A stretch of 21,698 nt of DNA from a virus. How positions within the stretch are numbered: the stretch's first letter is position 1; each line of letters starts with the position of its first letter. A program made the translations under genes and the position numbers. The DNA is taken from positions 1 to 21,698 of IMG/VR virus record IMGVR_UViG_3300027742_000037. The stretch is one strand, 5' to 3'. This document shows, piece by piece, positions 452-21,679 of this stretch. The notes below the pieces were generated by a model. That model ran no database searches. It saw only the letters and a program-made list of their open reading frames with translations, and had not been told where the DNA came from.

Positions 452-745
452 ATGGCCATTCAGGTACTCTCGAGGTTTAAGTTTTCAACGCTCGTAGCGA
501 CAGCATTCTACGACGACGAGAAACTACTTATCACCAGGGTTGAGGTTGATAATTCTGGTGATAATGCGGTTTCTATTACGGTACAAAAATATAATCCACC
601 AGCAAAGACATTCTCACAAATCTTTCAACCCCATACCAATGTAGGCTATGACGTACCAGCAGGATTTAAGTTGATTATCGAAGAAGATGAGTTCGGCGAA
701 CCTGAGCTATTAACACCTCTAACAATCACAATAGGAGGTGTGTAA
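452..745 (+). CDS. small beta-rich phage protein of unknown function
   Basis: This 97-residue protein starts after a GAGGAAAA site at 440-447. Its stop TAA shares a base with the ATG of the next gene, so the two are probably translationally coupled. The sequence alternates hydrophobic and polar residues, as in a small beta sandwich (LLITRVEVDNSGDNAVSITV, then VPAGFKLIIEE), and has no Cys, catalytic motif or membrane segment. It may be a small subunit or attachment protein for the large fibre that follows, since it sits directly upstream and is coupled to it. I do not recognise the family. Confidence 0.5.
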   Translation: MAIQVLSRFKFSTLVATAFYDDEKLLITRVEVDNSGDNAVSITVQKYNPPAKTFSQIFQPHTNVGYDVPAGFKLIIEEDEFGEPELLTPLTITIGGV

Positions 746-3700
746 TGGCAGTAGCAATAAAAGCATCTAGGTTAATAAAAGAAGAGTCTACCGTTACCAC
801 TTTTGATGTACTGCTTGATGGCGACTTTATAGCGCAAGGACAAACGTCGAGAAATTGGTACGGCATTAGTGTCAATTCTGATAATGGAGATGTGTGGGCG
901 TGTGAATACCAAGGTGATATTTACAAAAAGACCACTGGTGACTTCATTGCGCAGGAGCAAACGTCAAGAAATTGGTACAGCATAAGTGTTAATTCTAGCA
1001 ATGGGGATGTATGGGCGTGTGTATCCAGTGATGATATTTATAAAAAGACCACAGGTGATTTCGTAGCACAAGGACAAACATCAAGGAATTGGCGAGGCAT
1101 TAGTGTTAATTCTGATAATGGAGATGTGTGGGCGTGCGAATATGGTGGTGACATCTACAAAAAGACTACTGGAGATTTTATTGCGCAGAGTCAGACAGTA
1201 AGAGATTGGGTAAGCATCAGTGTCAATTCTGATAATGGAGATGTGTGGGCGTGCGAATATGGTGGTGACATCTACAAAAGTGCGTATGGGGGACAAGCAG
1301 GAAATTTAGCATTGGCACTTATCGCTAAAGATGATGATGTCACGATGTCATCAAGTAGTGGTATGACTCATGTTGTAGATATTGCAGGTGTAGACCATTC
1401 TTCTCATGCCTTTTGGAAGAAATTAACTTCGACTGATATTACCAACGGCTATCTAAGATTTACGGGGGATAGTGAGCTATACATCGGGAAAATGTATTAT
1501 ATTACGGGGCACGATGCTACTACCCCGATTGATATAGCGGATGCTACCGGCGCAACTGGAACAACCGCTGCGCCTTATGCACCCTCTATTACTATAGAAA
1601 CTGGTAGTCAAGCTTTTGCCATGACGGGTATGGATGATTCGGATATACCCTATTCCTTAACAACATCTGGATGGACAGTAAGCTTAAACGATGCGATAGA
1701 CGTTCCTGGCGGTGCGGGTATTGTTATCGGAACAAGAGACGCTACTACTTCGGGGGCAACAGGACAGGTAGATTTTACAACCAATGCCTCAGATGGTTGG
1801 GCTGCTTTCCAAATAGCGATTGCTGCTGGGTCAACTACCGATGAATTAACTTCTAAAAATGTTGCTAGTGCTTCCTCTGTTAATAAGCCAACAGTTGTTT
1901 CACCACCTGTCGATGAATTAACTTCTAAAAATGTTGCTAGTGCTTCCTCTGTTAGCAAACCAACAATAGCTCAAATCCATAATCTTACTTCTCAGAATGC
2001 GCTTAGTGCCTCTTTAGTTAGCAAGCCAACAATTGCTCAAACTCATGGTCTAACATCCCAAAATATAGCCAGCGCAGCTTCGGTCACTAAGCCGACACTC
2101 GCGGAAGTTTCAATACTTGTTAGTAAAAACGTCGAGAGTGCCTCTTCTGTAAACAAACCAGTACTAGCCCAAACCCATATATTAACAAGCCAGGATATTG
2201 AGAGCGCAAGTTCAGTTAATAGCCCTACCATTAATCAGACTTGTATACTTATTTCACAAAATATTGAGAGCGCAAGCTCAGTTAGCAAACCGACATTATC
2301 GGAAGTTCATAACTTAGTAAGTCAGTCTATTGAAAGCGCAAGTTCAGTTGAAAAATCAACGCTTGTAGTAATTCATGTATTGGCGGGGCAGAATGTAACA
2401 AGTGCCTCGTCGGTAGAAAAATCTACTATTGGTCAAATACACGAACTCACATCGCTGGATATAGCTTCCGCATCCTCAGTAGAAAAACCAACACTTTCAG
2501 AAATCTATAATCTAACAGGACAGGATATTGCAAGTGCTTCTTCAGTAAGTAAGCCAACACTAGCTCAAATCCATGTACTGGCAGGGAAAGATATTGAGGG
2601 AGCAAGTTTAGTTGGAAAGCCTACCATTGGTCAGACGCATATATTTACTTCACAAGATGTTGAAAGTGCAAGTTCGGTCAGTAAGCCAACACTAGAATCG
2701 AATGTTAATAACTTAGTAAGCAAAAATGTTGAGAGTGCATCCTCCGTAAGTAAACCTATTATTGCTCAAACTCACATATTAACAGGACAGGATGTAGAAA
2801 GTGCAAGTGCTGTAAGTAAACCAGCACTAGCTCAAACTCATATACTTGTTTCACAAAACGTTGAGGTGGCGAGTTCGGTTAGCGAACCAATACTGGCTGA
2901 GATTCACATTCTAATTGGACAAGATGTCGAAAGCGCAAGTTCAGTCAGTCAGTCAAATATTAGTCAGACTCACATATTTACTTCACAAGATGTTGAAAGC
3001 GCAACTTCTGTAAGCAAATCGGGCATTGCTCAAATCTACGTATTAACAGGACAGAATATTGAAAATGCAAGCTCGGTTACTCAATCGAGTATTGCTCAAA
3101 CTCATATATTTGTTTCACAAAACATTGAGATCACAAGTTCTGTAAGTCAACCAGATATTGGTCAAACCCATGCGCTTGTTTCACAAAATATTGAAAGTGC
3201 TAGTTCGGTCAGTAAGCCAACGGTACAATCAATTGCTGGTCTTGACAATCTAGTTAGCAAAAACATTGAAAGCGCAAGCTCTGTCAGTAAACCTGTTATT
3301 GCCCAGACCAATATACTCATAGGGCAAAACATTGAGAGTGCAAGTTCTGTAAGCAAATCAAGCGTTGGTCAAGTTCATATACTTACTTCGCAAAACATCG
3401 AGAGTTCGAGCTCAGTTAGCAAATCGACGTTATCGGGAATTCATAGCTTAATAAGTAAGCCTATTGAAAGTATTTCCTTAGTAAATAAGCCAACGATTGC
3501 TCAAACTCACATCCTAACAGGTAAAGATATTGAGAGTGCTGGCTCAGTAGAAAAATCAAGCATTAATCAGACTTGTATACTTGTTTCGCAAAACATTGAT
3601 AGCGCGAGCTCAGTCAGTAAACCAACGGTACAGTCGATTGCTAATGTCGATAATTTAGTAGGTAAAGATGTCTCAAGTGCAAGCGCTGTCAGTCAGCCAG

Positions 3701-4053
3701 TTATTACTCAGACTCATGTATTGGCGGGGCAAGATGTCGAAAGCGCAAGTTCTGTAAGCAAATCAAGTATTAGTCTAACTTATATACTTGTTTCAAAGAA
3801 TATTGAAAGCGCAAGTTCTGTTAGTCAATCGGATATTAGCCAGACTCATATATTTACTTCACAGAATATTGAGAGTATGAGTTCGGTCAGTCAATCACAT
3901 ATTAATCAAACTCATGCTTTAGTTACACAAGATATTTTCTCAATCTCGGTGGTCAGCAAGCCATATATAGACTTTGGAGAAGGTGGCGAGATAGTAAGGC
4001 AGAGTATTGCTAGAATAAACTATGATAGTTTGGCAGTAAGGAGAATGAATTAA
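745..4053 (+). CDS. giant repeat-built fibre / surface protein
   Basis: A 1102-residue protein with a very strong ribosome site (AGGAGG at 733-738). Residues 26 to about 180 are four 39-residue units of the type GDFIAQGQTSRNWYGISVNS followed by NGDVWAC and GDIYKK, which look like blades of a small beta-propeller or beta-solenoid. Residues about 190-365 are a beta-rich Ser/Thr/Gly region resembling a jelly-roll adhesin domain. Residues about 368-1075 are about 32 copies of a 22-residue unit with consensus LTSQNIESASSVSKP plus TIAQTHI. The last 25 residues (ending INYDSLAVRRMN) differ and could be an anchor. There is no signal peptide. Similar short Leu/Ser/Pro repeats occur in phage tail-fibre and decoration proteins. 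I infer an elongated virion fibre or host-contact protein; whether it sits on head or tail is not shown. Confidence 0.6.
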   Translation: MAVAIKASRLIKEESTVTTFDVLLDGDFIAQGQTSRNWYGISVNSDNGDVWACEYQGDIYKKTTGDFIAQEQTSRNWYSISVNSSNGDVWACVSSDDIYKKTTGDFVAQGQTSRNWRGISVNSDNGDVWACEYGGDIYKKTTGDFIAQSQTVRDWVSISVNSDNGDVWACEYGGDIYKSAYGGQAGNLALALIAKDDDVTMSSSSGMTHVVDIAGVDHSSHAFWKKLTSTDITNGYLRFTGDSELYIGKMYYITGHDATTPIDIADATGATGTTAAPYAPSITIETGSQAFAMTGMDDSDIPYSLTTSGWTVSLNDAIDVPGGAGIVIGTRDATTSGATGQVDFTTNASDGWAAFQIAIAAGSTTDELTSKNVASASSVNKPTVVSPPVDELTSKNVASASSVSKPTIAQIHNLTSQNALSASLVSKPTIAQTHGLTSQNIASAASVTKPTLAEVSILVSKNVESASSVNKPVLAQTHILTSQDIESASSVNSPTINQTCILISQNIESASSVSKPTLSEVHNLVSQSIESASSVEKSTLVVIHVLAGQNVTSASSVEKSTIGQIHELTSLDIASASSVEKPTLSEIYNLTGQDIASASSVSKPTLAQIHVLAGKDIEGASLVGKPTIGQTHIFTSQDVESASSVSKPTLESNVNNLVSKNVESASSVSKPIIAQTHILTGQDVESASAVSKPALAQTHILVSQNVEVASSVSEPILAEIHILIGQDVESASSVSQSNISQTHIFTSQDVESATSVSKSGIAQIYVLTGQNIENASSVTQSSIAQTHIFVSQNIEITSSVSQPDIGQTHALVSQNIESASSVSKPTVQSIAGLDNLVSKNIESASSVSKPVIAQTNILIGQNIESASSVSKSSVGQVHILTSQNIESSSSVSKSTLSGIHSLISKPIESISLVNKPTIAQTHILTGKDIESAGSVEKSSINQTCILVSQNIDSASSVSKPTVQSIANVDNLVGKDVSSASAVSQPVITQTHVLAGQDVESASSVSKSSISLTYILVSKNIESASSVSQSDISQTHIFTSQNIESMSSVSQSHINQTHALVTQDIFSISVVSKPYIDFGEGGEIVRQSIARINYDSLAVRRMN
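820..1281 (+). repeat. four 117-bp tandem repeats (39-residue propeller-like units)
   Basis: Four in-frame tandem units of 117 bp. Each encodes GDFIAQ-QTSRNW, then ISVNS, NGDVWAC and GDIYKK blocks. Units three and four are nearly identical at the DNA level around 1104-1160 and 1221-1277, including the stretch AATGGAGATGTGTGGGCGTG. That points to recent duplication. The last unit loses the KKTT linker. Confidence 0.85.
1846..3969 (+). repeat. about 32 tandem 66-bp repeats (22-residue units)
   Basis: An uninterrupted in-frame array of about 32 units of 22 residues. The core is L-T/V-S-Q/K-N/D-I/V-E-S-A-S-S-V-S-K-P. A few units are longer by 1-3 residues, as in the VQSIAGLDN (unit 21) and VQSIANVDN (unit 27) spacers. 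Most units differ at synonymous sites, so the array is old. The first two units share about 43 identical bases 72 bp apart (1839-1882 and 1911-1954), a recent duplication at the array's start. Confidence 0.9.
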
Positions 4054-8093: not shown

Positions 8094-8113
8094 TATAAAA
8101 TGGGAGCATAAAA

Positions 8114-8362
8114 ATGGCTAGAAAAAAAGAAGATTCATCGAAAATTCAGTATGGCTCAGAAGAGCATGTATCGGCTATCAAGAATGCCTATGGTATCAGA
8201 CCGGAGATCGCCGGAAAGGTTGTCAAAGAGTTTGAGGATGGCACGAAGGACTGGGATGTTGGTTATTACGAAAAATGCAAACGCATGATGTCATTAATCA
8301 ACAACCCAGAGCCGAAACCTGTTTCCCCACGAAAAGGCTGGAAACGCGATAGAAGTTATTAA
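8114..8362 (+). CDS. 82-residue basic protein of unknown function
   Basis: GGGAG at 8102-8106 precedes the ATG by seven bases. The protein is highly charged, starting MARKKEDSSKIQYGSEEHV and ending RKGWKRDRSY, with a central motif PEIAGKVVKEFEDGTKDWDVGYYEKC. It has no membrane segment. It lies between the capsid gene and the beta-helix gene and shares their strand and spacing, so it is likely a minor head or assembly protein. I do not recognise the family. Confidence 0.55.
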   Translation: MARKKEDSSKIQYGSEEHVSAIKNAYGIRPEIAGKVVKEFEDGTKDWDVGYYEKCKRMMSLINNPEPKPVSPRKGWKRDRSY

Positions 8363-10876: not shown

Positions 10877-12331
10877 ATGTCAGATAAAGTATATTCATCC
10901 CGTCGTGGAGCGGTATTTGTTCAAAAAACAGGGCCGAATTCAAAGGCTGAAGTTCTTCGCTGTTTGGACGCAGACGCCATTACATCGCCAAAACGGGACA
11001 AAGAGCTTATTAAATGTTGGAACGCCTATGGCGAAGGTTGGAATGATGTTGGAAAAACTTATTCCCCGCCTGGGCCTGCAACTGTCACTTTAACACAATT
11101 AACAGAAGCATCAATGAGTGAGCTGGAAAAGTTATATTGCCCAGTCACCCTTTTGTTTGCTCAGGTCAAAAGTGGTAAAGTGACTCAAATTAACAACGCC
11201 GAGCGCGTTATTATTATGAAGAATGCCGAGCCTACTGAAGATAGCTATGATGGCGTTGTTCATCATTCAGACGATAATGTGTCAACACACGCGATGCCGT
11301 TCTCTGGTGATTCTGAGATCACGGTAGTTGGTTATCCCGACATCCAACGACAAACCACGGCATTGACGGAAGCGCTCAACGATATTCATGGTAACATTTC
11401 GGCAGATTGCGCCGACAGAGTCGAGCCTGGCGATAAACTTATTGCCGTTCCTGATGCGGCTACCGGTCTTACAGCTAGTGTATATTACTCAGATGATGCT
11501 GGCGTGACATGGACTGCTTCAGCCGCCGATCCATTTATCGCCGATGAACATATCGTGGCTTGCCAATGGTTTATGAAAGACAACGAAACTGAACGATGGC
11601 TTGTTGGAGAAACAGCCCCAGCCGCCGGTCAGGGTGATGTTGCATACTCAGATGATTTTGGGGCGACATGGACTACCGTTACTATCGGTGGTGCTGCTGC
11701 TGGACATGGCGCGACTCTCGGTGGATGTTTACATGTTGTCGATGCTGAAGAAATTTGGCTGGCTTCTGCTGCTGGTTATATCTATAAATCGGAAGATGGC
11801 GGCGAAAGCTGGACTGCTAAAGAACAGGGTGGCATTACCACAAACGATTATACTCACATCCATTTCTATAATAGTGACACGGGTGTTGCTGTAGCTTCGG
11901 CTGGTGTTGTTGCCTTAACAGAAGATGGCGGAGATACATGGGTCGCCGGAACGGTTGTGACTGATACGCCTGATCTTCTTGCTTGCTGGATGCCAGAAGA
12001 AGATACGATTTGGGTTGGTGACGACTCCGGTGATCTTTGGTATTCACATGACTTCGGCGTTACCTGGACAGAGCGCACAGGATTGTTCGGAACACCTGTC
12101 GCAATCAATGACGTTGAATTCTTTGATGAACAGGTTGGCTTTATTGCGGTTGATAATGTAACCCCCGTTGGGTCAATTCACCAGTCTATTCTTGGTGGAT
12201 ACTCATGGCGAGCGCTCACTACACCTGCAAACTCTGGGATTAATGCAATTCATGTTGTCAATGCTAACCTTGCATTTATGGTTGGTGAAGCTAATGGCGG
12301 TACTGCCTTTATCGGCAAATTGTCCGCATAA
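10877..12331 (+). CDS. major tail (tube) protein fused to a six-bladed Asp-box propeller
   Basis: The 484-residue protein lies between neck and chaperone genes, where siphoviruses encode the tube protein. AAGGAG is nine bases before the ATG. Residues 1-185 form the putative tube domain (MSDKVYSSRRGAVFVQK, ATVTLTQLTEASMSELEKLY, ERVIIMKNAEP). Residues about 186-484 contain six Asp-box (BNR/Ycf48-like) motifs of the S-x-D-x-G-x-x-W type, starting at residues 205, 258, 305, 348, 390 and 437 (SDDAGVTW, SDDFGATW, SEDGGESW, TEDGGDTW, SHDFGVTW, SILGGYSW), 42-53 apart. That suits a six-bladed beta-propeller. The sixth is degenerate. Sialidase catalytic residues are not apparent. I infer a tube decorated by propellers, with tube identity resting on position. 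Confidence 0.6.
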   Translation: MSDKVYSSRRGAVFVQKTGPNSKAEVLRCLDADAITSPKRDKELIKCWNAYGEGWNDVGKTYSPPGPATVTLTQLTEASMSELEKLYCPVTLLFAQVKSGKVTQINNAERVIIMKNAEPTEDSYDGVVHHSDDNVSTHAMPFSGDSEITVVGYPDIQRQTTALTEALNDIHGNISADCADRVEPGDKLIAVPDAATGLTASVYYSDDAGVTWTASAADPFIADEHIVACQWFMKDNETERWLVGETAPAAGQGDVAYSDDFGATWTTVTIGGAAAGHGATLGGCLHVVDAEEIWLASAAGYIYKSEDGGESWTAKEQGGITTNDYTHIHFYNSDTGVAVASAGVVALTEDGGDTWVAGTVVTDTPDLLACWMPEEDTIWVGDDSGDLWYSHDFGVTWTERTGLFGTPVAINDVEFFDEQVGFIAVDNVTPVGSIHQSILGGYSWRALTTPANSGINAIHVVNANLAFMVGEANGGTAFIGKLSA

Positions 12332-12343
12332 AATAAAATATTA

Positions 12344-12426
12344 GGGAGCGATTTACTTCTGGATACTTGCGGGGCGCGCGTAATGACCGCTCCCCATTAC
12401 GCCCCCCGCTAGTAGATTATGGGAGC
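12344..12426 (+). promoter_or_regulatory. GC-rich hairpin/pseudoknot able to mask the chaperone ribosome site
   Basis: The 99-base gap before the chaperone gene holds a long hairpin. GCGGGGCGCGCGTAATG (12369-12385) pairs with CATTACGCCCCCCGC (12395-12409), about 15 bp with two single-base bulges, and a 9-base loop (12386-12394, ACCGCTCCC). The loop's CGCTCCC can pair with GGGAGCG at 12344-12350, or GCTCCC (12389-12394) with GGGAGC at 12421-12426, which is the chaperone's ribosome site. No T-run follows, so it is not an intrinsic terminator. The element is much richer in G+C than its surroundings. A switching role is inferred. Confidence 0.5.
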
Positions 12427-12430
12427 TGAG

Positions 12431-13054
12431 ATGGAAAAGAAGACAGGAACATTCGTTACTCTTAACGGTGAAGAATTTACCGTTATCGGTTTTACGCGCA
12501 TGCTGGCTGTGCGCGTAGAGGAGTCTGTAAAAACAAACTGGGAGTTGGTAGAAGGAAGACCACTGCCAAAACGCCCAACCTATTCTATTGATGGCGATGA
12601 TGTCTTTGGCGGCGAAAAAGTTGTTTATTATCATACCGAAGACACTCTTGAAACAGAAGATGAGAAAAAGGCTTGGGTTGCTTATAAGATCGCCGAAGAA
12701 GAACTAAATTCGCGCACTTGGAAACAAATGGTTTATGAAGCCATGAACTGCGTTGAAGTTCCGATGAAACGCCTTAAAGAATACGCAAAGCAACACAAAA
12801 ATGAGACTGGACTTAGCTTGCCGAATCCAGAAGTATACACGGCACGCGTGAAGCGTATTTTTGTGGAACATATTGTATTGTGTGATGATACAGATGAAAT
12901 GATGCGCTTGTTAACAGAATCAATGCGGATTGCTGGCGTGATTTCAGATGTTGAGGCAGGTAAAGCTCTGGAATCCTTTCGAGATCAAGAGACTGAACAG
13001 AGCAGCGAATCCGCCGAACGACCAGATACCCCTGAGCCAGATAGTAATCCCTGA
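12431..13054 (+). CDS. tail assembly chaperone (gpG-like)
   Basis: I choose ATG 12431 (GGGAG at 12421-12425, five bases away) over the in-frame ATG at 12419. The 207-residue protein begins MEKKTGTFVTLNGEEFTVIG, has a helical body (EKKAWVAYKIAEEELNSRTW, then KRLKEYAKQHKNETG, VKRIFVEHIVLCDDTDEMMR) and a disordered acidic C-terminus ending TPEPDSNP. Gene position directly before the tape measure and an overlapping downstream frame are the mark of siphovirus tail chaperones (lambda G/GT). It would bind the tape measure during tail assembly. It is not part of the finished virion. The C-terminal tail ends at the CCC_TGA frameshift site. Confidence 0.7.
   Translation: MEKKTGTFVTLNGEEFTVIGFTRMLAVRVEESVKTNWELVEGRPLPKRPTYSIDGDDVFGGEKVVYYHTEDTLETEDEKKAWVAYKIAEEELNSRTWKQMVYEAMNCVEVPMKRLKEYAKQHKNETGLSLPNPEVYTARVKRIFVEHIVLCDDTDEMMRLLTESMRIAGVISDVEAGKALESFRDQETEQSSESAERPDTPEPDSNP
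13049..13054 (+). other. programmed +1 frameshift site CCC_TGA
   Basis: The chaperone frame ends AAT CCC TGA. A +1 slip of the proline tRNA from CCC to CCT lets the ribosome leave the stop and continue as GAT (Asp) in the next frame, which stays open to 13259. CCC followed by a stop or U is a known +1 site type; Listeria phage PSA uses proline-codon +1 shifting. A stem AGAGGG (13116-13121) / CCCTCT (13128-13133) lies 60 bases on, probably too far to act as stimulator. Confidence 0.6.
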
Positions 13055-13259
13055 TGCTTATGGCTCTGATTGGGACACAAGCGAATTGTTTACACAGGTT
13101 GATGCTATCCTAGATAGAGGGTGGAAACCCTCTGACTTTGGTATTTGTCATCCATATCAAGACGGCGCGGTAATGTATGCTCACGCGTTGGCTTCCGCCA
13201 AGATCAGAAGTTATGAAAATTATCTGAGTCAACAAAGGATGAAAAATGCCAGAAAATGA
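13053..13259 (+). CDS. chaperone frameshift extension (gpT-like domain)
   Basis: The +1 frame gives 68 residues (DAYGSDWDTSELFTQVDAIL, then RGWKPSDFGICHPYQDGAVM and IRSYENYLSQQRMKNARK). It has no start codon with a ribosome site of its own: the nearest upstream ATG (12948) has none and would read through chaperone sequence in the wrong frame. As a fusion, the full-length product is 275 residues. The 3' end overlaps the tape measure start by 14 bases. In lambda the T extension binds the tail tube subunit. The same is inferred here. Confidence 0.6.
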   Translation, partial: DAYGSDWDTSELFTQVDAILDRGWKPSDFGICHPYQDGAVMYAHALASAKIRSYENYLSQQRMKNARK

Positions 13260-16200
13260 AGAGCGCATAGGTTTCGAAGCCTATTTTGAAACCCAAGAAT
13301 TTGAAGATGGAATTAAGCGCTGGGAAAGTGGATTAGCAAGCGCTAATAAGTCAGGCGATAGTTTTGTTGACAAAATAATAAATATGAGAAAGAGCCTAGA
13401 TCAAATAGGCGGTACTCTACTCGGTGGTATTGCTGGCACTGCGGTAGGTGGGCCTTTTGGTGGAGCTATTGGTACTGCTGTCGGTACTATCGCCGGAAAA
13501 TTAGCCCACGCTTTTGACCCAGTATCAATTGCTCTTAAGGGAGTTAGCCTACTTCTAAAAGGCGTAAAGGGTGCTTTCCAACTAGTTGGCGCTGTTGCTC
13601 AAACGGCTTTCAAATTAGTTGGTGTTGCTATTAAAGGCGTGATGATTGGTGTCACAGCCTTAACCGCTTTAGTAACAGGTGGTCTTGTTGCTGGATTCTT
13701 GTTATTCAGAAGAACGGCACAACAAGCCTTTACTGCGCTCACAAGTAAACTAAAGGAGCTTCTGCAAACTGCTGTTGAATTCCAGCAAATTGAAGTTGGT
13801 ATTCATGCTTTGGTAAGAAGTGCCTTAGTTGGCGCCGGTACTTTTGAAACCGCTTCAGATGCAATCGGAGCGGCTATTCCTATTGCGAATGAACTAAAAG
13901 AGGCGCTTGAACAACTATCTCTAAAATCACCATTCCCGACAGAATATGTTTACCAGATATTTAGAATTAATGCTGCTTTTGGCATAGCATTAGATACATC
14001 TTATAAATTAACTGAAGCCATGTTAGAGATTGGGGCTGCGACTGGTTTTAGCTCAACTGTTCTTGAAAGAATATCCCGTAACTTTGCCCAGGTTGCTAGA
14101 AATGAGAAGATATTAGAAAGAGATATAACGGAACTTTCTAACGCTGGACTAAGTATGCACAGAATCCTTGATGAAGAATTAAATATGTCTGTTGATGAAT
14201 TCAATGAAGGCATTAAAAAGGGAACTGTCTCAATGGACGATCTTTATGATGCCCTACTGCGGTTTACGCAAAAAAACTACGAGGGTTCATTTGAGGCTCT
14301 TGGCATGACTGTTGTGGGGTTACAAGCAAGATTTCAAAATCTGGGCGCTGTCATTGTAAGAGACTTTGTAACGCCGATTGTTCGTATGGCTGCACCGGCG
14401 CTTAATACTCTTATGGACGCTTTGGCCATGGTTACTACGACAGACGTATTCGTTATGTTTGGTCAAACCGTTGCTAATATGGCTCAACGGGTTGTAGGCG
14501 ATATAGACTGGACAACCGAATCCATTGCACAGAAGATTATGGATTTATTATTATGGGTTGCTCATGCTGCAAGAGACTTTTTCAAATGGGGTTATGAAAC
14601 ATTTATTGCCTGGGGTGTGGGCGCACTAAAAGGGGCTGCGACAGCTATTTCTGCTGTTGCGAATTTCATAAGCCGAGCATTAACAAGATTATTCTCAACA
14701 CATTCCCCGCCAGAGATATTACCAATGATTGACGTTTGGGGCGCAGAGACAATTGAAGCATGGTTAGAAGGAATGACGCGCGCTGACTTCAGTATTCTTA
14801 ATGATATCGTAGACCAGGTTGAATCTGTTCTGAAAGCACTAGATTTTGAAAACTTGGATATTGGCAGTATCTTGCAAACGATGGTTAGGGATGTTTCGCT
14901 TGGTGGGCTAGAAAATATATTTGCTAGTATAACAGACCAGCTTGGGCCGTTCGCTGATGCGCTTCAGGAATTAGTCGATCTCAGTAATGAGCTATCTGAT
15001 GAAAATAAAATATTGGCAGATATTATGAAACGTGTTAAAGACGCTATGGCTGATGTGGCAAGAGAAGAAGAAGTTCTTGTTGGCATAACAAAGCGATACG
15101 ACGCTGCGCTCAAAGATGTTACTGCTCAGGAAGAAATACTTGAAGGAATACTTGACCGTAAAAAGACAGCGATGAAAGACGTTACTGCCCAGGAAAAGAT
15201 TCTTGAATCTATCTTAGATAGGCGGAAAGATGCCCTGAAGGATGTTAATACCCAAGAAGATATTCTTGATGGAATATTAGACCGTAAAAAGATAGCAATG
15301 AAAGACGTTATTTCCCAAGAGAAAATCTTAGAAGCGATTTTAGACCGTAAAAAGATAGCAATGAAAGACGTTAATGCCCAAGAAGATATTCTTGATGGCA
15401 TATTAGATCGTAAAAAAGACGCGATGAAAGACGTTATTGCTCAAGAGAATATCTTAGAAGCGATTTTAGACCGCAAGAAGATAGCGATGAAAGATGTTAT
15501 TGCTCAAGAGAAAATCTTAGAAGCGATAACAGATAGAATGAGTGATGCTCAAAAAGCATTGAACAAGCAAGAAAAAATACTAGAGGATAGAACATGGGCA
15601 GTTAAAATAGCGCAAGAAGCGCTTGAAGATGCCATGGATTTCTATGACGATGCTGATGATTCTGTACAAAGACTCGTTAGAGAATATAATGCTCTTCTCC
15701 GCGCTGGCGCTGGCGATGATGTTTTGGATGCCAAGTTAGCTGAAATAAAAGCTATGCAGCTTCAACGCCAAGAAGCGGCTAAATTAATAGATGATACTGA
15801 AGATCAGGTAGATGTTGCCGAAGATGCGAAATTCGCCCAAGAGCAAATTATTAGAGGCTATAAAGACGCTGTCGATGTTATCAAAGAAGAAGCAGATGCG
15901 CAACAAGAAATTATTGATGGATATCAAGATATTGTAGACAGAATTGAAGAAGAGGCGGATGCACAACGAGAAGTCATTGATGGCTATCAAGACATCGTTG
16001 ACGCCATTGAAGAAGAGGCAGACGCACAGCGAGAAATCATTGACGGCTATCAAGACATCGTTGACGGAATCGAAGACGAAGCTGATGCACAACGGGAAGT
16101 CATTGATGGATATCAGGATATTGTTGATGGCATCGAAGAAGAGGCGGATGCGCAACGGGAAGTGATAGATGGCTATCAGGATATTGTTGATTCTATCAAT

Positions 16201-18006
16201 GATGAGATAGACGTTCAACAAGAAGTGATAGACGGATACCGAGACATCGTAAACGCCATTGAAGAAGAAGCTGATGCTCAACGCGATATTATTGATAACT
16301 ATCAAGATATTGCCAATGGCATTCAGGATGAAATAGATGCCCAGCAAGAAGTGATAGACGGTTATCAAGAAATCGTTGATGGAATCGAAAATGAAGCAGA
16401 CGCCCAGAGAGATGCTATTGACGCAATGGAAGATCAAATATCTGCTCAAGAAGACCTGATTGATCTTATGCTAAAGCTCACGGGTTATACGGAGGACGAA
16501 ACTACTTCGTTGGGCGATCTAAATGATGAACTTAGCGATGCGGAAGATAATCTTCGGGATATTTTTGATATAGACTGGGAAGCTATTGACACTTCTGCGC
16601 TTGACAGTTCTTTAGGGGATATCGGGGTTGCATTAGGGGAAGTTGAAACCGAGTGGGGTACACTTGTAACAGCTGCCGAAGATGCTTGGGCTGATTTGAC
16701 AGGTGAAAATGGGCCGTTTTCTAATGCTTGGGAAGATATAAAGGCGTTATTTAATTGGAACGATCAGTCGTCTTGGGATGAATTCGTTGGAGAGATGACA
16801 CCAACAGTTGAGCATTCAATGAAATATATTTTATTCCAAAATATAAAAGATTTAATTATAGAGTTCGCCACGAACTTTTTTACAGATCAAGAAATCTTAA
16901 ATTCAATTAAGGACGTAGGTAAAAACATCATAGGGAATATATTGGATGGTGTTGAAGAAAAGAGCGAAGCAGAAGATGGTCGTTTTAAGAATATGATAGT
17001 TGATTTCTTTATCGGAAAAACAAGAAAGGCATTGGGGATAGAGGGAAATACTTCTAAAAAGGCTAATAATGAAATAGGAAAACCTATTGCTGATGGAATT
17101 ATAGGCGGAATAGGGGACAAGTTAGGCGATGCTGGGTATAAGCAATCATTAATAGGATTTGGCGATTGGATATTTGATGTTATCAAGGGATGGCTTGGCA
17201 TAAGTTCTCCCTCACAAAGGGCACACGATGAAATAGGGGTAGAAATAACCAATGGTATTATAAACGGAATCAAGGAAAAATTCACAAATCTTACAACAAC
17301 AGCCGGAGAACTTTGGACTACTTTCAAAGAAGGGCTTGGTGATTTTTGGACTAAGGCTTACGATATCGGGAAGGCTATTCTTCAGGGTATGATACATGGC
17401 ATTAATGCAAAGTTTAGTGACCTTAGAGCAAAAGCTGGAGAAATATGGGGAACTATCAAAAGTGGCTTAGGAACTGTTTGGAATAGTGCATATAGCGTCG
17501 GCAAAGATATAATTGGTGGTATAATGGCTGGTATATCGTCAATGCCAAACTTACTTGGTTGGGCTTCGAGAATAGCAGGAAGTATTATTCAAGCAATAAA
17601 AAATGCCCTTAATATCAGTTCTCCATCTGAAGAAGCAGAAGAGGAAATTGGCGCTCCCGTTGCGGAAGGTATTTTTGAGGGTATTGATAAGGGCATTAAA
17701 AACTCCAAGGTTGAATTTATGATGGAATCTCCATCAAAATTGATGGAAGAACAAGTTGGTGTTCCATTAATGCAGGGTGTTCTTCAAGGATTTAATACTA
17801 TGAAGGGCGCTATTTCAGAAGGAATGACCAGTATGCTAAATTATACACCAACGCCGACACAATCATATACGCCTTCTTCAATTTCAAATAATAGCATTGT
17901 AAATAATATGTACATGGGAAATAATACAGTAAGAAGTGATATAGATATAGCAATTATCGAAAATGCCGTTAAACGCGCTATCCATAATGCTTCTTTTGGG
18001 ATATAG
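13246..18006 (+). CDS. tape measure protein
   Basis: A 1586-residue protein after the chaperone pair, start ATG 13246 with AAAGGA upstream. Residues about 50-165 are hydrophobic and Gly/Ala-rich (GGTLLGGIAGTAVGGPFGG; GVMIGVTALTALVTGGLVAG), able to insert in membranes. Residues about 165-400 are a TMP core domain (NEKILERDITELSNAGLSM, MSVDEFNEGIKKGTVSMDDL). Two arrays of 21-residue repeats follow, at residues 604-792 and 862-1071. The C-terminal part has four copies of the SPS/IG module typical of tape measures (SPPEILP, SSPSQRAHDEIG, SSPSEEAEEEIG, ESPSKLMEEQVG), each followed by a G-I/L-x-x-G pattern. At 0.15 nm per residue the tail would be about 240 nm. It sets tail length and probably exits during DNA injection. 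Confidence 0.85.
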   Translation: MPENEERIGFEAYFETQEFEDGIKRWESGLASANKSGDSFVDKIINMRKSLDQIGGTLLGGIAGTAVGGPFGGAIGTAVGTIAGKLAHAFDPVSIALKGVSLLLKGVKGAFQLVGAVAQTAFKLVGVAIKGVMIGVTALTALVTGGLVAGFLLFRRTAQQAFTALTSKLKELLQTAVEFQQIEVGIHALVRSALVGAGTFETASDAIGAAIPIANELKEALEQLSLKSPFPTEYVYQIFRINAAFGIALDTSYKLTEAMLEIGAATGFSSTVLERISRNFAQVARNEKILERDITELSNAGLSMHRILDEELNMSVDEFNEGIKKGTVSMDDLYDALLRFTQKNYEGSFEALGMTVVGLQARFQNLGAVIVRDFVTPIVRMAAPALNTLMDALAMVTTTDVFVMFGQTVANMAQRVVGDIDWTTESIAQKIMDLLLWVAHAARDFFKWGYETFIAWGVGALKGAATAISAVANFISRALTRLFSTHSPPEILPMIDVWGAETIEAWLEGMTRADFSILNDIVDQVESVLKALDFENLDIGSILQTMVRDVSLGGLENIFASITDQLGPFADALQELVDLSNELSDENKILADIMKRVKDAMADVAREEEVLVGITKRYDAALKDVTAQEEILEGILDRKKTAMKDVTAQEKILESILDRRKDALKDVNTQEDILDGILDRKKIAMKDVISQEKILEAILDRKKIAMKDVNAQEDILDGILDRKKDAMKDVIAQENILEAILDRKKIAMKDVIAQEKILEAITDRMSDAQKALNKQEKILEDRTWAVKIAQEALEDAMDFYDDADDSVQRLVREYNALLRAGAGDDVLDAKLAEIKAMQLQRQEAAKLIDDTEDQVDVAEDAKFAQEQIIRGYKDAVDVIKEEADAQQEIIDGYQDIVDRIEEEADAQREVIDGYQDIVDAIEEEADAQREIIDGYQDIVDGIEDEADAQREVIDGYQDIVDGIEEEADAQREVIDGYQDIVDSINDEIDVQQEVIDGYRDIVNAIEEEADAQRDIIDNYQDIANGIQDEIDAQQEVIDGYQEIVDGIENEADAQRDAIDAMEDQISAQEDLIDLMLKLTGYTEDETTSLGDLNDELSDAEDNLRDIFDIDWEAIDTSALDSSLGDIGVALGEVETEWGTLVTAAEDAWADLTGENGPFSNAWEDIKALFNWNDQSSWDEFVGEMTPTVEHSMKYILFQNIKDLIIEFATNFFTDQEILNSIKDVGKNIIGNILDGVEEKSEAEDGRFKNMIVDFFIGKTRKALGIEGNTSKKANNEIGKPIADGIIGGIGDKLGDAGYKQSLIGFGDWIFDVIKGWLGISSPSQRAHDEIGVEITNGIINGIKEKFTNLTTTAGELWTTFKEGLGDFWTKAYDIGKAILQGMIHGINAKFSDLRAKAGEIWGTIKSGLGTVWNSAYSVGKDIIGGIMAGISSMPNLLGWASRIAGSIIQAIKNALNISSPSEEAEEEIGAPVAEGIFEGIDKGIKNSKVEFMMESPSKLMEEQVGVPLMQGVLQGFNTMKGAISEGMTSMLNYTPTPTQSYTPSSISNNSIVNNMYMGNNTVRSDIDIAIIENAVKRAIHNASFGI
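15055..15621 (+). repeat. nine 63-bp repeats in tape measure (array A)
   Basis: Nine in-frame units of 21 residues, consensus V-x-A-Q-E-K-I-L-E-A-I-L-D-R-K-K-I-A-M-K-D. Units alternate between QEKILEAILDRKK and QEDILDGILDRKK, so the duplicated block was probably 126 bp in places. Identical runs such as AGATAGCAATGAAAGACGTT recur at 15290 and 15353. The first and last units have drifted. Twenty-one is three heptads, as expected for a long coiled coil. Confidence 0.85.
15829..16458 (+). repeat. ten 63-bp repeats in tape measure (array B)
   Basis: Ten in-frame units of 21 residues, consensus ADAQREVIDGYQDIVDGIEEE. They are strongly acidic, differing from array A but of the same period. Synonymous changes between units show age, while central units (from 15960 to 16190) are close to identical. 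Units 7 and 9 carry IDVQQEV or IDAQQEV. The spacing suits a helical rod. Confidence 0.85.
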
Positions 18007-20626: not shown

Positions 20627-21679
20627 ATGGCAGATAATTTTGATTTCGATGAAGGAGTTGATAGCACAGGCGCAGCCGATGATTGCGCTGGTGTTAAATA
20701 CCAAATAATAAAAGTTGCCGATGGCACGGCGGATAGCACAACAGTTATAAAAGCTGGTGGTGGTGTTGAAGCTGATGCACTTAGAGTAACGATTGCAAAT
20801 AATAGTACAGGTGTATTAAGTGTTGATGATGGCGGCGGTGCGCTGACTGTGGACGGCACGGTTGCAGTAACAAACGCAGGACTGACAGAACTTGCAACAG
20901 CGATTGACACACAGGTTCAGGTTGATGTTGTGGCAGCTCTACCAGCAGGCACAAATAATATTGGTGATGTGGATATAGCATCCGCTTTACCAGCAGGCAC
21001 TAATGCGATTGGTAAGTTAGCAGCCAACTCAGGTGTAGACATCGGAGATGTTGATATATTATCAATAGCAGCAGGGGATAACAATATTGGCAATGTAGAC
21101 GTTGTAACTTTGCCGCCTCTAGAAGCAGGGAATAACAATATTGGAAATGTAGATATTGTTGGTGGAACGATCACTACAATTACTAATGATGTCGGTCTTG
21201 ACGCAGGTGAAAATCATATCGGGGAAGTCGGGATGCCGGACACGGTCATTACGATAACACCCACCTTAGACACCTCAGCGTATGCCGACGGAGACGTTCT
21301 TTTCACTACAGAAGCGATTGCAAACGCAGTTCGTAATGATGGCGAAAGTTGCATCCTGCAAAGTATTCAAGTTTTGGATAAGGCTGACCAAGGGATTGAT
21401 TTTGAACTGGTATTTTTTGACGCTGACAAGGATTTGGGGACAGCCAATGCGGCTATTACCATTTCAGACGCTGATGCAGCATCAATAATCGGACATTATG
21501 CTTTCAGCAATGACTACATTGACCTTATAAATTCACAGATACGATGTGATGAGGGCATTGGGCTGGTATTGAAAGCAGGGGCGGCCACGACTTCACTATA
21601 CGTTGGCGGTATCAGCAAGGGAGCTGGTACTTATGCGGCTAGCGATATCGTGATTAAATTGGGATTACTTAGAAATTAA
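20627..21679 (+). CDS. repeat-containing fibre-like virion protein
   Basis: A 350-residue protein with TAGGAGA (20615-20621) before the ATG. The N-terminus (MADNFDFDEGVDSTGAADDC, then AGVKYQIIKVADGTADSTTV) has the D-GVDSTG/ADD-GVKYQ-IK pattern seen in many metagenomic phage fibre or decoration proteins. Residues about 105-205 contain five imperfect units around AG(T/D/N)NNIG(D/N)VDI, giving a low-complexity beta-solenoid-like stretch. The C-terminal third is a globular beta domain (SCILQSIQVLDKADQGIDFE, GIGLVLKAGAATTSLYVGG). No catalytic residues are evident. It is expected on the virion surface, near the tail tip given its place after the distal tail gene. Confidence 0.5.
   Translation: MADNFDFDEGVDSTGAADDCAGVKYQIIKVADGTADSTTVIKAGGGVEADALRVTIANNSTGVLSVDDGGGALTVDGTVAVTNAGLTELATAIDTQVQVDVVAALPAGTNNIGDVDIASALPAGTNAIGKLAANSGVDIGDVDILSIAAGDNNIGNVDVVTLPPLEAGNNNIGNVDIVGGTITTITNDVGLDAGENHIGEVGMPDTVITITPTLDTSAYADGDVLFTTEAIANAVRNDGESCILQSIQVLDKADQGIDFELVFFDADKDLGTANAAITISDADAASIIGHYAFSNDYIDLINSQIRCDEGIGLVLKAGAATTSLYVGGISKGAGTYAASDIVIKLGLLRN

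Follow-up and report, generated by a model that had tools for sequence, protein, structure and literature searches.

The stretch of DNA analyzed here (the window, 21,698 bases) is the uncultured phage record IMGVR_UViG_3300027742_000037 from IMG/VR. In the gap between its genes for a tail tube protein and a tail assembly chaperone, a hairpin is located between two copies of the motif GGGAGC, both of which are complementary to a hexamer in the hairpin loop. The copies are designated U (upstream) and D (downstream, the Shine-Dalgarno sequence, SD, of the chaperone gene), and the loop hexamer is designated L. A further copy, M, precedes a small gene behind the major capsid gene. The features are compiled in Table 1.

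Table 1. Positions of the hairpin element, its partner motifs, and the flanking genes in the window
Feature	Position	Strand	Remarks and basis
Tail tube protein gene, 5' of the element	10877..12331	+	484 aa; Pfam BNR/PSII_BNR repeats; precedes the chaperone and tape measure genes; relatives with 73% to below 30% identity
U, upstream copy GGGAGC(G)	12344..12350	+	12 nt past the tube stop codon; potential partner of the hairpin loop; U:L kept in L002 and L132; own-versus-swapped z 5.6
Hairpin, 5' strand, two single-base bulges	12369..12385	+	Fold; alignment of relatives
Apical loop ACCGCTCCC	12386..12394	+	9 nt; L = GCTCCC at 12389-12394, directly abutting the 3' strand
Hairpin, 3' strand	12395..12409	+	Fold; alignment of relatives
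D, GGGAGC, chaperone SD	12421..12426	+	Complementary to L; just before ATG 12431
G-type tail assembly chaperone gene	12431..13054	+	ATG 12431; between tube and tape measure genes
T-type extension ORF, +1 frame	12948..13259	+	Likely GT product via frameshift at CCC_TGA 13049-13054
M, GGGAGC, SD of a small gene (8114-8362) after the major capsid gene	8102..8107	+	Complementary to L

The tube protein consists of an N-terminal domain and BNR/beta-propeller repeats, the latter matched by Pfam. This BNR/sortilin-like beta-propeller is kept across dozens of related phages and is an unusual decoration of a tail tube. Repeats were also seen elsewhere in the window: in the 1102-aa product of the ORF at 745-4053, several propeller-like repeats are followed by a large number of near-repeats (SQNIESASSVSKP-like), and the product resembles a repetitive fibre-like protein. 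Two arrays of short, imperfect repeat units (AILDRKKIAMKDV.. and EEADAQREVIDGYQDIVD..) lie within the tape measure gene at 15100-16500.

Sequence searches for a family of the chaperone gene gave no match. G/GT tail assembly chaperones are encoded between the tube and tape measure genes, with a second ORF that overlaps the first in another frame. The gene downstream of the element has such an ORF in this interval, and the tape measure gene follows next. Around its stop codon, the +1 frame is open for 37 codons before and 68 codons after, and the overlapping ORF stays open past the stop in the window and in most relatives' loci. The context of the stop reads CCC_TGA in the window and TCC_TGA in the two close relatives L002 and L132. 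This stop together with the ORF reaching to 13259 is likely to constitute a +1 programmed frameshift yielding a GT product. An alternative in-frame ATG at 12419 overlaps the chaperone SD and is absent from L002.

A preliminary description of the window had proposed the hairpin and its two competing partners. Its hairpin at 12369-12409 was reproduced with 15 pairs (6 + 1 + 8) and two single-base bulges, both on the 5' strand, and the coordinates and letters of GGGAGC at 12344-12349 (7 bp with G12350), of the loop motif GCTCCC, and of GGGAGC at 12421-12426 were exact. The element had further been called the most GC-rich part of the window, which holds for stretches of 41 nt (0.756) and fails for stretches of 30 nt, where 20831-20860 ranks first. 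Each record contains the hairpin in a single copy.

Taken alone, the sequence of the window provides modest, suggestive evidence for the element. The z-score of the fold was -1.8, with equal stability reached in 10 of 200 shuffles. A perfect 6-nt match between the loop and the last 22 nt of the gap occurred in 42 of 2000 dinucleotide shuffles, and a loop matching both the SD region and the upstream site in three of 2000 dinucleotide-shuffled gaps. It is the comparative evidence from relatives that places the element far beyond chance.

The closest relatives were L002, whose tube protein is 73% identical to that of the window, and L132, whose capsid protein is 81% identical. Both contain U, hairpin, L, and D in the same order with different linker lengths, and the spacing from D to the ATG is similar. 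As MAFFT misplaces D across the variable linker, pair counts were restricted to the stem and U:L, and L:D was assessed by swapping (see below). All 21 pairs form in each of the three aligned sequences (window, L002, and L132), and seven of the 15 stem pairs are altered on both sides yet kept; slid controls on the same alignment gave 44-57% pairing. The covariation in relatives that the preliminary description had called for was thus found, strongly in its favor: the hairpin, the loop, the SD, and the upstream copy are all found again and vary in concert.

Searches with the tube protein led to a wider family of dozens of phages. A discovery set of 40 tube-to-chaperone gaps, each of at least 60 nt and with start codons picked by hand, was subjected to a swap test in which the loop of each main hairpin was compared in turn with the 22 nt preceding the chaperone start codon in the same phage and in every other phage. 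The mean Watson-Crick run was 6.65 for own and 4.60 for swapped combinations (sd 0.16; maximum of 20,000 permutations 5.25; z 13), and the duplex energy of own loop:SD pairs gave a z of -9.9. An independent validation set of 22 new gaps with automatically assigned starts behaved alike (6.09 own vs 4.69 swapped; z 6.0). As a control for specificity, 127 other intergenic gaps of the same loci were used, 123 of them with a hairpin. Runs of at least 7 were found in 66% of the tube-chaperone gaps and in 1.6% of these 123 hairpin-bearing gaps; the element is specific to the tube-chaperone gap.

The D motifs comprised 40 distinct kinds among 43 loci, as exemplified by the D/L pairs GGATCAG/CTGATCC, GGATGCG/CGCATCC, GAGGGCAAAC/GTTTGCCCTC, and GGGGACAA/TTGTCCCC. 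Because they differ almost everywhere, the match between loop and SD reflects covariation and not a shared purine-rich SD. Pairing between loop and D extended over 7.5 nt on average, of which the match to the 16S anti-SD accounts for only 4.0. Six of the 40 gaps of at least 60 nt were misfits, mostly those with the most distant tubes, and many distant relatives have short tube-chaperone gaps without the element. Four loci encode two tandem tube-type propeller proteins (L030 5985-8937, L040 1-2611, L078 14023-17086, and L079 14319-17340), and the hairpin element, where present, follows the second one only.

Across the loci, the stem is about 20 bp long. In 25 of 34 loci no nucleotide separates L from the 3' strand, and 0-7 nt are found on the 5' side of L. 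As far as sequence can tell, this is the arrangement of an H-type pseudoknot or a kissing loop: the loop is complementary to a downstream single strand, and L is adjacent to the 3' strand of the stem. A rough A-form steric estimate allows D:L pairing alongside an intact core stem in 17 of 34 loci; in the remaining ones it requires 1-6 basal pairs to open, which still leaves 14 bp or more. The linker between stem and D is missing altogether in seven loci, where D:L pairing depends on partial melting of the stem base.

U occurs in about half of the loci (~17 of 34 by inspection; an automatic rule gave 22, some of them doubtful) and begins -1 to 19 nt past the tube stop codon. When own and swapped combinations were compared for U, z was 5.6, and U:L is within reach with the full stem in 18 of 22 loci (A-form estimate). 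In the 17 loci with U, the mean difference between U:L and D:L was -0.1 kcal/mol (sd 2.6), that is, the two are nearly isoenergetic. The two mutually exclusive pairings proposed in the preliminary description are therefore present and of about equal strength, as a bistable switch requires, exclusively in loci with U. Since only about half of the loci possess U, the pairing of loop and SD represents the conserved core and the two-state switch an elaboration.

The hairpin, L, D, and U exist and co-vary, and the structure of the element is well supported. The regulatory effect and its trigger we infer. In our best reading, to which we assign a probability of roughly 0.68, the element is a cis-acting translational pseudoknot switch that would limit chaperone synthesis, with U as competitor. 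The long, stable hairpin would display L, the antisense of the chaperone SD, at the 3' side of its loop, and L and D would pair as an H-type pseudoknot that masks the chaperone ribosome-binding site. Synthesis of the chaperone, of which little is required, would consequently stay far below that of the adjoining upstream tube protein, which is required in large amounts. In the window and about half of the phages, U, the second SD copy by the tube stop codon, would compete for L. Paired with L, it would leave the chaperone SD free; covered by a terminating ribosome, it would release L to shut the SD. Heavy translation of the tube gene would hold the chaperone down because terminating ribosomes cover U. 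On this account the pseudoknot would form in the cell and repress initiation, ribosome occupancy would be the trigger, and the tube-to-chaperone ratio would be the purpose; the element probably limits the amount of chaperone made relative to tube protein.

Counted against the switch are the loci without a linker, the missing or doubtful U in about half of the loci, the six misfits, and the short gaps devoid of the element. A purely local switch also does not explain the motif shared by the SD of the post-capsid gene, located about 4 kb upstream of the element. In most phages with a recognizable capsid gene, the SD of the small gene directly behind it carries the motif targeted by L. Across the phages with a recognizable capsid gene, to which this test applies, L matched the post-capsid SD of the same phage with a mean of 5.75 vs 4.31 for permuted combinations (p 2e-5, n = 16). 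After enlargement to n = 20 the values were 5.65 and 4.44, and none of 50,000 permutations was as high. The validation subset gave a p of 0.08 and is too small (n = 4). An extended motif common to the post-capsid SD, the chaperone SD, and the hairpin loop of one and the same phage was found in the window (8102-8107), L002, L006, L016, L019, L046, L064, L066, L082, L132, and L168. In L007 and L008, where an HNH gene has been inserted behind the capsid gene, the gene thereby displaced retains the SD GGGGGAC, which is perfectly complementary to the loop GTCCCCC and matches it better than the local D does. The SDs of other genes matched the loop weakly (z 2.5).

Mainly because of this post-capsid match, we keep a reading in which the hairpin loop acts in trans or at long range as an antisense module on the chaperone and post-capsid SDs and represses both once the tube gene has been transcribed, the hairpin perhaps being released as a small RNA. 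The match within the same phage in both samples, the perfect match retained by the displaced gene of L007 and L008, the weak match of other SDs, and the seven no-linker loci, in which local pairing is awkward, speak for it. It is weakened by the limitation of the match to phages with a recognized capsid and the small validation subset, by the reuse of one SD motif at many genes in some phages (L082), and by the separate small RNA, which is a postulate only; we regard it as rather doubtful. A broader proposal, which we put forward tentatively, is a dual-target riboregulator: the loop would co-evolve with two SDs ~4 kb apart and limit the genes after capsid and tube, the SD copy at the tube stop would report ribosome traffic, and a second group of phages would have evolved the same design after the capsid gene. 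If true, the dual-target loop would coordinately limit translation of the genes behind those for capsid and tube, the most abundant proteins of the virion.

The second group comprises L095, L099, L103, L106, L109, L110, L112, L115, L120, L122, L124, L125, and L127. In these phages a similar hairpin directly follows the major capsid gene (e.g., L127 11110-11183). Its loop contains the near-invariant ..GCTCCTTT.., complementary to the AAGGAGG of the next gene, and in several members (L115, L120, L122, and L124) an AAAAGGA-type copy is also located at the stop codon of the capsid gene. RNAalifold predicted 16 pairs, 11 of which are changed on both sides. Possibly, the same design evolved twice.

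Returning to the tube-chaperone element, the tube protein, the chaperone, or another phage protein might bind the hairpin or pseudoknot as an operator and repress translation, similar to gp32 on T4 gene 32. A phage pseudoknot precedent exists (PMC3014915), the stem is long and stable, and the position would suit autoregulation. Complementarity to D, on the other hand, requires no protein, and no conserved recognition sequence is visible since stem and loop sequences diverge almost completely and complementarity alone is kept. A protein operator seems unlikely to us.

A GC-rich hairpin after a presumably highly expressed gene could also simply stabilize the tube mRNA at its 3' end or attenuate transcription there, with an incidental match between loop and SD. 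The locus-specific match was found in two independent sets and is missing from the other hairpin-bearing gaps of the same loci, the SD directly follows, and no U-tract is found after the stem, which makes this explanation very improbable. An intrinsic terminator was ruled out, as the hairpin is followed by TAGTAGATTATGGGAGC with no U-tract directly after it. Covariation likewise rules out a chance structure or a mobile palindrome (REP/MITE-like or IS200/IS605 end) with GGGAGC as flanking direct repeats, and the single copy per record and the same syntenic place in dozens of phages, with divergent sequence and kept structure, speak against the latter. A known Rfam family or riboswitch was rejected as well, as no covariance model matched the window, L002, L115, or L127 at the gathering score.

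Searches for close relatives by the chaperone or tape measure protein found none, and an exact pattern scan for the element returned no matches. Annotated phages, searched at the DNA and protein level with the tube or the chaperone as query, gave no hit, so that no cultured host is known. In Methanoculleus virus Blf4, the nearest cultured relative by capsid, the presumed tube and chaperone genes adjoin without a gap (positions 13004/13007), and the element is absent. L132 (PWMI01000043.1), a phage contig near the window, was binned in a metagenome-assembled genome of a Diapherotrites archaeon, which may reflect a binning error or else hint at the host.

The element was described neither in Rfam nor in the literature searched, which comprised open-licence papers only and does not prove novelty; RNA control of chaperone against tube protein was likewise not described in these papers. 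One operon yields hundreds of tube subunits and little chaperone, which is explained mainly by frameshifting in the chaperone gene. A widespread covarying RNA element between the tube and chaperone genes would control dosage at a second level. Loop and SD have been rewired together in about 45 natural variants, which offer a ready set for compensatory-mutation tests.

Among known systems, T4 gene 32 resembles the element in having a phage mRNA pseudoknot upstream of the start codon, where it controls translation in the autoregulation by gp32, and a 2010 review of T4 considered it possibly the sole viral example in translational autoregulation (PMC3014915). That pseudoknot is located 67 nt upstream and nucleates protein binding (PMC3014915). 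The loop of the present element, in contrast, itself complements the SD, and the element is located between two structural genes with no known protein. The timP mRNA of the timPR type I toxin system likewise adopts exclusive conformations through alternative pairings, one of them a pseudoknot, that set the access of the 30S subunit, but it is a bacterial toxin leader with an antitoxin sRNA and its pseudoknot activates (PMC11228461). The present element is intercistronic, belongs to phages, carries a copy of the SD behind the stop codon of the preceding gene, and presumably represses.

In SD-occluding riboswitches of the preQ1-I type, the SD forms one strand of a pseudoknot and the ligand pocket is conserved. 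The element would share the SD as pseudoknot strand and differs in lacking conserved primary sequence and an Rfam match. In G/GT (lambda-like) tail chaperones, frameshifting sets the ratio of G to GT. The presumed target gene belongs to this class and is likewise overlapped by a shifted-frame ORF; unlike the frameshift, the element would set chaperone against tube protein.
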